Assembly (NCBI GenBank): GCA_016192035.1
Contig: JACPUW010000019.1
Location: 1 to 64,000 of the forward strand
Length of the DNA: 64,000 nt
Source: Bacteroidota bacterium
GTDB lineage: Bacteria > Bacteroidota > Bacteroidia > CAILMK01 > JACPUW01
Direction: 5' to 3'
In this document: positions 10,581 through 13,227 of the stretch, piece by piece
How the letters are laid out: every line of letters starts with the position of its first letter
Numbering within the stretch: position 1 is the first letter of the stretch
Program-made: the position numbers and the translations under genes
The notes under the pieces: model-generated
Databases searched by the model: none
Seen by the model: only the letters and a program-made list of their open reading frames with translations
Told to the model about the DNA's origin: nothing

Positions 10581-10838
10581 CAGGGCAGGAACGGTGGGGA
10601 TTCATTGCGTTGGTGTCCGCTCAGGCCGCCGCACGAGCGGTTTGGAAAATGCTTGGCATTTGTGAAACGTAGGCTTTGTGTGTCGGGCAAAACCAAATGT
10701 GCCGGTTGTGCGGTGGGCTTTATCAGCATGGCAGACAACGTTTTCGGGACCTGGGGCAGTGGCGGGATTTTTACCACTAATGTTGATGCGGAGCACAAAG
10801 CTCCAAGTTTGTACGTCAACCAGCCTGAGGCAAAACCC

Positions 10839-10848
10839 GTGTTATAGC
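10839..10848 (+). repeat. Left arm of 10-bp inverted repeat (GTGTTATAGC)
   Basis: Perfect inverted match to GCTATAACAC at 11876-11885, flanking an AT-rich gene. Confidence 0.7.
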
Positions 10849-10860
10849 CAGTGGTTCTTG

Positions 10861-11832
10861 TCATTCTTGGTCTGTCGGTATATGTTTTTCCTTGCAATAT
10901 TTTTCTACTTCTGTGTCGTTTGCAAAGTAGTCGTCACAAAATTCGTCAAGTTCTTTCTCTGCACCTGAAACATACTTTTCACTTGCTGTCATTAGTTTTT
11001 CGGTCTGCTCTATGAACCTATTGAACTTATCATTCATTTTGCAGAGTTTGTCAATCGTCTTAAAGTCCAAGTCACGATATGTTGCAGGAAAAAGTATCTT
11101 ACTTTGATACGGATTTGCATTGAGTTCAATTATACCAATTCCAAAAGATTGGTTTAGTCGTCCCATTTCTTCCTTCAAACTGTCGCTAAACTCAAAAGCA
11201 ACCAAGTAACCATAGTTTGCCCAACTTGAATTTGAAACTGCTTGAAAGAATGCCTTTTTAAGTTCGCTGTCACTGTTGATTTCCTTTTTCAATTCATATG
11301 AACTCATTTTAAAGGTGTCAACACGATTGATAGATTTTAAAAAGTTTTGACTGGCTTTGGTTTGCAAGTTCATAAACTTAATTCCAACCATATCTGGGTG
11401 TGTCCAAATTTGGTTGTTGTCCTTGCCGTTTGATTGTTCGTGAAAAATTGTCTTCGAGTAGGTGTCAGTATTTTTTAAATAGCTACTTAAAAGTTTATGT
11501 AAATCTCTTTCGTCAAAGGATTTTGCTTTGTCCGTCTTCGTAACTTTTGTTGTTTGTGTTTCGGTTTCACCTGATAAAATATCAATACCAATGTTCTGCT
11601 CGTTTTTTGTCCAGTAGTAGGAGTAAGTCCCACCATGTTGTTTAATACGCTTAACTCTTGTGTCACCGTTACGAATGAAGTCTCCAAGACAAGCCGAAAC
11701 TGTCGAGCCAGGTGTTTTACCTGATCCAAAGTCAAAATACTTTTTAGCAAGAATGTGATTTAACACATCTGAGTAATTTGTCAAATTACCAATATCTTCT
11801 AAACTTTTTATTACGGCTTCTTTTAGTGTCAT
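10861..11832 (-). CDS. HARE-HTH domain protein, COG2958/HrgA-like (putative restriction-associated)
   Basis: N-terminal 'AVIKSLEDIGNLTNYSDVLNHILAKKY...STVSACLGDFIRNGD' HARE-HTH-like; C-terminal alpha/beta region with conserved-looking 'WTHPDMVGIKF'; AT-rich composition. Confidence 0.65.
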   Translation of the reverse strand: MTLKEAVIKSLEDIGNLTNYSDVLNHILAKKYFDFGSGKTPGSTVSACLGDFIRNGDTRVKRIKQHGGTYSYYWTKNEQNIGIDILSGETETQTTKVTKTDKAKSFDERDLHKLLSSYLKNTDTYSKTIFHEQSNGKDNNQIWTHPDMVGIKFMNLQTKASQNFLKSINRVDTFKMSSYELKKEINSDSELKKAFFQAVSNSSWANYGYLVAFEFSDSLKEEMGRLNQSFGIGIIELNANPYQSKILFPATYRDLDFKTIDKLCKMNDKFNRFIEQTEKLMTASEKYVSGAEKELDEFCDDYFANDTEVEKYCKEKHIPTDQE

Positions 11833-11875
11833 TATCTGTTCCTTTTTATGTCACGGTTCGGCCGTCCTACTATTA

Positions 11876-11885
11876 GCTATAACAC
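11876..11885 (-). repeat. Right arm of 10-bp inverted repeat (GCTATAACAC)
   Basis: Inverted match to 10839-10848. Confidence 0.7.
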
Positions 11886-12271
11886 CCCCCCCCACCTGAC
11901 CTATTGCGTATATATTGACTATGTGCGAGGTGGTTTGAGTTTGGCATAGTCAAAGGTAGCTGTACCAAACATACTATCCCAGGGGCTGGGCAAAGTTTTG
12001 TTGTTGACGTACCTAGCGCCTGTGGCGCTACCGTTTTCATGCTGCCCGTATGCCCCGGTGCTGGTTGTACCTGGCCCCTGGTCCATGCCCCGTGGTGGCC
12101 CTGCACCCCAGCCTGGGCTAGGGGGTTAGGATATATTGTATTGATAGTGTGTAGAAAATATCGCTCCTATGGGTTTATTAAACACATGGTGCGCCCTGCA
12201 CTACCATAGCCTTGGCCGGTAGCTGCCCCCATGGGCACGGGCGGCAGGGCTTCGATTGCCCCGCCCGGCTC

Positions 12272-12333: not shown

Positions 12334-13227
12334 TTAACCTCTCTTTCTTGGTCGGTGCTTGCCCCGGCCCTTGCGCTTTTCGCGCAGTTGGTCTAGGTCC
12401 ACTTCCTTGGTCTCGCCGTCCTTGGTTATGGTGGCCTTGCTGTCGCAGCTACCATCGCCAAAGTCTATGGTTACCTCGCCCTTGGGGCCTTTCATGGTTA
12501 CCACGCCGCTGAGCGGATACTTGCAGCTACGGCTGCGCACTATGGGCTTCACTATGGTGCGCGTGCCCATGGCTTCGCTGTCGCGGGTGGTGGTTCCCCC
12601 TCCGGTTATTGATACCACATTGTCAAGGCAATCCTCTGTATCATAGCCTTCCAGCCATTCCAGTTCACCATCCGACTCCCGCTCAAAATCGCCCTTTGGG
12701 CCTGTGCCTTTCTCGCTAAGGCTGTGTTTGTACACATAGTTGCCCGCACTGTTCTGGCCCAAGTTTTCCACTACCCTGGTCCCTGTTACGCCAAACCCAT
12801 CCTCCCCCTGGTGTTCAAAACTTACGGTGCGTTTAGAGCCTTTCAGTTTCATGTCGCCGGTTTCCACAATGCTTACTCTGCCTGTCATGGTCCGTCCGTG
12901 GGGGCCCTGGCAGCCTTCGGCAAACACAATCTCAATGGTTTTGGGGTACCCCTCGCCACTCTCTGTTACCGTAGCGCATTCGGGCAGCCTTTCGCGCCAT
13001 TCCCCATCGCAGGGTGGCATGTCCATTTCCCCGTGCATCATAAAAGGGCCTTCGTGCCCGGCCCCTTCACCGGTGCAGCCCGTGCTTTCCAGTAGCAGGC
13101 TTTCGGTTTCGCTCACCGATGCCTCAGGATCCAGGTTTGACAAAAGGCCTTCACTGCAAGCGCTCAAATACACCACGGCACCCAGCGCAAGCATGATGTG
13201 TGTGGCAGCCATTTTTAAAGTTTTCAT
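12334..13227 (-). CDS. Hypothetical lipoprotein
   Basis: 297 aa with lipobox-like 'VVYLSAC'. Confidence 0.75.
   Translation of the reverse strand: MKTLKMAATHIMLALGAVVYLSACSEGLLSNLDPEASVSETESLLLESTGCTGEGAGHEGPFMMHGEMDMPPCDGEWRERLPECATVTESGEGYPKTIEIVFAEGCQGPHGRTMTGRVSIVETGDMKLKGSKRTVSFEHQGEDGFGVTGTRVVENLGQNSAGNYVYKHSLSEKGTGPKGDFERESDGELEWLEGYDTEDCLDNVVSITGGGTTTRDSEAMGTRTIVKPIVRSRSCKYPLSGVVTMKGPKGEVTIDFGDGSCDSKATITKDGETKEVDLDQLREKRKGRGKHRPRKRG

Follow-up and report, generated by a model that had tools for sequence, protein, structure and literature searches.

What kind of element is the single AT-rich gene that lies between the arms of a perfect 10-bp inverted repeat in a Bacteroidota genome, and what brought it there? 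The gene lies in a 64,000-nucleotide stretch (positions 1 to 64,000 of contig JACPUW010000019.1, assembly GCA_016192035.1; hereafter the window), for which a sequence-only reading had proposed an accessory, possibly defence-related, gene moved as a cassette by a recombinase acting in trans. The locus is almost certainly a real integron gene cassette, and very probably a one-gene cassette seated at a decayed integron platform. The proposal of a single accessory gene moved as a cassette has stood: its content is probably for defence, one end bears an attC-like site and its mover would have been a tyrosine recombinase. The distant recombinase has not stood, because the integrase lies adjacent as a wreck. 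The features on which this account draws are as follows.

10734-10849, minus strand: attC of the cassette, from R'' (GGCTATAAC) to R' (CGTTGTC), with about 10 of 24 model pairs non-standard
10739-11882, minus strand: putative mobile cassette of about 1144 bp, bounded by G^TT at either end and placed from the attC hit and the cassette rule
10839-10848: left repeat arm GTGTTATAGC, the R'' box of the attC, reading GCTATAACAC on the minus strand
10861-11832, minus strand: cassette gene, 323 amino acids, with a predicted N-terminal HARE-HTH domain (residues 1-62) and a predicted C-terminal PD-(D/E)XK nuclease domain
11876-11885: right repeat arm GCTATAACAC, which on the minus strand forms the attI/cassette junction GTG^TTATAGC, a junction also found in other units of this kind
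11886-11927, minus strand: attI remnant; its 25-mer CGCACATAGTCAATATATACGCAAT (11903-11927) is more strongly conserved than any other part of the 12 units of this kind
11919-12055, minus strand: decayed C-terminus of an integron-type tyrosine recombinase, ending at a stop codon inside the attI core

The gene's 3' end carries a site of the attC type. A covariance model (R1), trained on five attCs from elsewhere in the genome and not on the window site, gave a single hit in the 64 kb, at 10734-10849 on the minus strand (41.2 bits, E 9.3e-9); its five training sites align with covariation at 11 of 28 predicted pairs. Rfam held no match in the region. By established integron chemistry, the circle of an integron cassette is cut at the G^TT of its attC, so that R' supplies its first bases, which are complementary to its own R''. 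We compared attCs pairwise within arrays from the window genome and from eight relatives: the five bases that follow G^TT in one attC fully complemented (5/5) the R'' box of its successor in 41 of 44 pairs of neighbours, whereas only 117 of 2818 pairs of non-neighbours (4%) agreed in this way. The window cassette follows the rule over 7 of 7 bases (TTATAGC/GCTATAA). Both marks of an integron cassette are thus present, a paired-box attC at the 3' end of the gene and a cassette 5' end that complements its own R''.

The inverted repeat follows from this arrangement. Its arms match because one is where the cassette starts, G^TTATAGC, and the other is R'' (GCTATAAC) in the cassette's own attC, and the left arm begins 12 bp beyond the stop codon because it is the first box of that attC. 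Since the rule holds over the arrays and in the window, the repeat is a signature of cassette recombination, with a crossover that we infer to lie between 11883 (G) and 11882 (T). The sequences, the positions of both arms and the 12-bp distance had all been read correctly; the role of the repeat as the defining feature was not sustained. In the window, 39 perfect 10-bp inverted-repeat pairs occur at 900-1200 bp spacing, compared with 18 in mononucleotide shuffles, and such a repeat at such spacing is background, not significant alone. It is the attC and the attI junction that define the cassette.

Contrary to the earlier statement that no transposase or integrase is present, the degraded C-terminus of a tyrosine recombinase abuts the right arm. 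Positions 11892-12055 are a dispersed repeat with 11 more copies in the genome, making 12 units in total. On the minus strand the window relic ends in VNNKTLPSPWDSMFGTATFDYAKLKPPRT before its stop codon; the best copy (G000:C31, minus strand) ends in GHTSSKTTEVYTRVTSINNKTLRSPLDSLYDTAYL before its stop, which is the C-terminus of an integron-type tyrosine recombinase, and matches TIGR02249 (E 1.4e-5). Each copy closes with the 25-mer CGCACATAGTCAATATATACGCAAT, a block less diverged than the coding relic that precedes it, and in most copies GCGTATATACGGATG^TT and then an AT-rich gene come next. Relic, core and cassette start stand in identical order and orientation in the 12 units, so that a conserved core, the putative attI, lies beside what is left of an integrase gene. 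The core occurs 11 times in the genome at up to three mismatches (<=3) and is absent from the same-genus and same-family genomes. The first cassette of the C31 copy opens with TTATAGCC; its gene is followed by GGCTATAAC, a palindromic site of about 130 bp and then AAAACGTTGGC, which is the box order R'', L'', L', R' of an attC (fold z -2.05).

The twelve dispersed units are the window copy (11892-12055) and loci L056-L066 (contigs C31, C17, C18, C19, C13, C7, C8, C35, C38 and C36). Every unit keeps only about the last 90 codons of the recombinase, and no N-terminal pieces were found. Several units, as at L063 and L065, share a sequence about 300-500 bp before the relic, RVVDT.GA..LPFAK before a stop, which resembles the close of a type IX secretion tail; the duplicated block therefore exceeds the recombinase and attI.

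We propose that a tyrosine recombinase, of which only the last codons survive, was encoded beside an attI at its own 3' end. Circular cassettes would have been joined at the G^TT of this attI, so that TTATAGC opens the cassette and its own attC closes it; the R'' box of that attC, GCTATAAC, complements the opening and would yield the inverted repeat. The platform would belong to a Bacteroidota-wide integron family with attCs of about 133 bp and an upstream, co-oriented recombinase that lacks the IntI-specific insert in the catalytic domain.

The cargo differs in composition from its surroundings, as first described: the gene has a guanine-cytosine (GC) content of 0.354, against 0.492 and 0.562 in its neighbours, and no other stretch of equal length in the window is as AT-rich. 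The HARE-HTH assignment holds at the level of the family. PF05066 scores a weak 17.7 bits on the window protein, below the Pfam gathering cut-off of 25.9; of 13 homologues, 10 match it, the best at E 4e-15. E108, P146-D147, E180-x-K182 and Q197 are invariant across the 13 homologues, and by this PD...ExK motif the C-terminal domain is most likely a PD-(D/E)XK nuclease. A PDB profile search with the protein returned no match, searches of NCBIfam and PADLOC found nothing for it, and an AlphaFold model from the single sequence was useless (predicted local distance difference test score, pLDDT, 36). The cargo is most likely a DNA-binding nuclease used in defence. In most of the 12 units the cargo is AT-rich, and in many cases it consists of genes for restriction or another form of defence: on the other relic platforms we found NotI-like and BanI-like restriction-modification pairs, a type III system, an AriA/AriB-like (PARIS) pair, an NsnA/NsnB pair, an Eco57I-type methylase, a Fic protein and a RhuM protein. 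Because these platforms hold defence cargo, the window gene is likely, by association, to serve in defence as well. At one unit (L063:1-8195), a five-attC array carries a helicase-like gene and NYN/LOTUS proteins up to the contig end, possibly an uncharacterized defence cluster.

Several observations weigh against a cassette at a platform of its own. The genome encodes no intact recombinase of the integron type and no canonical IntI, only XerC and XerD, and no recombination has been observed. The window relic is too short to identify the recombinase of origin or to probe the IntI insert. A half-site, (T/G)TGCGTATATACGGATG, that other units have is lost here, and the attI is shortened. The sequence-only reading had proposed to fold the ends for attC-like hairpins; as a single strand, the window attC does not outdo shuffled sequence in folding (z -0.42), and evidence for the site therefore comes from the family model. 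The defence role derives from a motif and neighbouring cargo, PADLOC having no model for the protein. The sequence-only reading had named relatives with the gene but without the repeat as a refutation, and such relatives exist: five carry a homologue at 52-83% identity in other contexts, with no repeat, so that the gene family also travels in other vehicles. That is all these homologues show, because the evidence for a cassette rests on sites and not on the gene family. The poor fold and the roughly 10 of 24 non-standard pairs mean that the window attC is partly decayed. With the recombinase dead, half of the attI lost and the attC folding poorly, the window cassette is probably fixed, and this copy is probably frozen unless an integrase comes from outside.

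The strongest competing account would have a distant integrase insert a lone cassette off-target into an ordinary intergenic region, the recombinase fragment having arrived separately. It gains from the same-genus genome (G001), in which the genes flanking the cassette locus are collinear. There, the interval from the DUF4476 gene to the next conserved gene holds a different AT-rich gene (269 amino acids) with a weak attC hit after it (22.7 bits, E 3e-4), and neither the HARE gene nor the attI core; judged by sequence, the interval differs between the two species by cassette-like content, a variability that also counts in favour of the platform account. Off-target insertion has also been proposed before as a route to clusters of attC sites lacking integrases (CALINs) (PMC8618304). 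We nevertheless regard this account as unlikely, because in 12 units the recombinase relic leads into the attI core and this into the cassette start, always in one order and orientation. The same-genus AT-rich gene and its weak attC hit (L209:10516-11471) lie in the opposite orientation, with no attI core. Next to the cassette locus, window positions 12334-13227 encode a predicted lipoprotein with no clear Pfam family, which is missing from the collinear same-genus locus.

An element of the miniature inverted-repeat transposable element (MITE) or insertion sequence (IS) type, outside integrons, with terminal inverted repeats and a transposase in trans, was already disfavoured and is highly improbable: it would explain a perfect 10-bp repeat around one AT-rich gene, but such repeats are background, the arms have only two exact copies in the whole 2.98-Mb assembly, both at this locus, and other cassettes have differing arms that obey the attC rule. 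We therefore rejected an element of this type. That a foreign gene arrived by homologous recombination or phage, next to a coincidental repeat, is hardly credible: the homologues found in varied contexts without a repeat would agree with it, but the attC hit (E 9e-9) coincides with the 3' end of the gene and has the arm as its R'' box.

With the cassette at a decayed platform as the preferred explanation, the attC family to which it belongs can be followed in other Bacteroidota. R1 attC sites occur in 147 of 194 relatives of the class; of 119 genomes sampled across the phylum, 61 have them. In relatives with intact loci, recombinases of 350-450 residues lie upstream of attC arrays, in the same orientation as the cassettes. 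The long recombinase is found in 100 of the 194 relatives; by counts transcribed by hand from two tables, attCs are present in 95 of the 100 genomes with it and in 52 of the 94 without it (p 3e-11). On a Chryseobacterium sp. SNU WT5 plasmid (NZ_CP041688.1), the recombinase precedes cassettes in which R1 scores five attC hits. Plasmids of Klebsiella, Aeromonas and Acinetobacter encode tyrosine recombinases (hits H18-H32), one of them annotated as TnpF, that share 47-49% identity with the Bacteroidota recombinase over its catalytic part.

The recombinases linked to these arrays depart from IntI. Alignment to IntI4 (2A3V) falls into two pieces, with about 42 IntI residues missing between them, and the catalytic lysine box lies 58-59 residues from HxLRH in all array-linked recombinases measured (57-59 over the measured relatives), versus 65-66 in the genome's own XerC/D and 100 both in IntI1 and in the one relative with a true IntI. 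What they lack is the insert by which IntI is thought to grip the folded, single-stranded attC, and TIGR02249 scores of 206.7 and 211.4 bits stay below the curated cut-off of 265, which was passed in only 1 of the 194 relatives. That relative (L106, G147:C40), the only one with a canonical IntI, has no R1-type attC in its genome. In a tree, IntI falls within or beside the Bacteroidota recombinases on a long branch, at a place where long branches meet. Array-linked recombinases (for example L159, L157 and L210) also bear an N-terminal extension of about 90 residues, with a motif like ARWSNTRKVWHVP and a weak DUF5710 match, which is absent from Xer and IntI1 and could be a site- or strand-recognition domain. 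By all site evidence, the system appears to work like an integron while falling outside the canonical definition of IntI.

Known systems share parts of this arrangement. Canonical IntI integrons (class 1 IntI1, Vibrio IntI4) likewise have palindromic attCs, the G^TT cassette rule, an attI beside the integrase, AT-rich accessory cargo and a recombinase ending in SPLD-L; the Bacteroidota recombinase differs in its missing insert, its extension of about 90 residues and the attI at the 3' end of its gene. The reverse integrons of Treponema, in which recombinase, attI and cassettes run in one direction, have the same gene order and also persist as remnants after integrase loss (PMC3607928), but were found through IntI, whereas here the recombinase is insert-less and one genome holds 12 relic platforms. 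CALINs, as catalogued by IntegronFinder 2.0 (PMC9024848), are alike in having attC cassettes without a recognizable IntI, whereas many of the Bacteroidota arrays adjoin a full recombinase that the IntI model scores below cut-off. Simple tyrosine recombinases of the XerA type resemble it in the catalytic domain (best PDB match XerA, 5hxy; NF040815 just below cut-off); it differs in its linkage to attC arrays, its N-terminal extension and an SPxD-L C-terminus as in IntI.

Taken on this sequence evidence, we favour, with moderate confidence, the view that Bacteroidota possess a widespread integron class of their own, with attCs of about 133 bp, a 3' attI and an insert-less recombinase bearing a novel N-terminal extension. 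In the literature searched, which included few subscription papers and no preprints, we found no description of such a class. IntegronFinder 2.0 reported in Bacteroidetes only In0 elements and one complete integron, in Salinibacter ruber M1 (PMC9024848); integrase models in such surveys demand IntI features, so that Bacteroidetes seem almost devoid of complete integrons. If the class is real, IntI-based surveys would have overlooked a large cassette pool: of the genomes sampled from class and phylum, roughly one half to three quarters have one coherent attC family, and around half of the class sample has the linked recombinase. It would add a major reservoir of cassettes, much of whose cargo in the window genome is for defence. 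Cassette recombination at structured sites would then have evolved, or would work, without the IntI insert. That insert has been described as essential for integron function, though incompletely conserved in its subgroup (PMC8138268), and these Bacteroidota systems would offer a natural test of whether it is truly needed.
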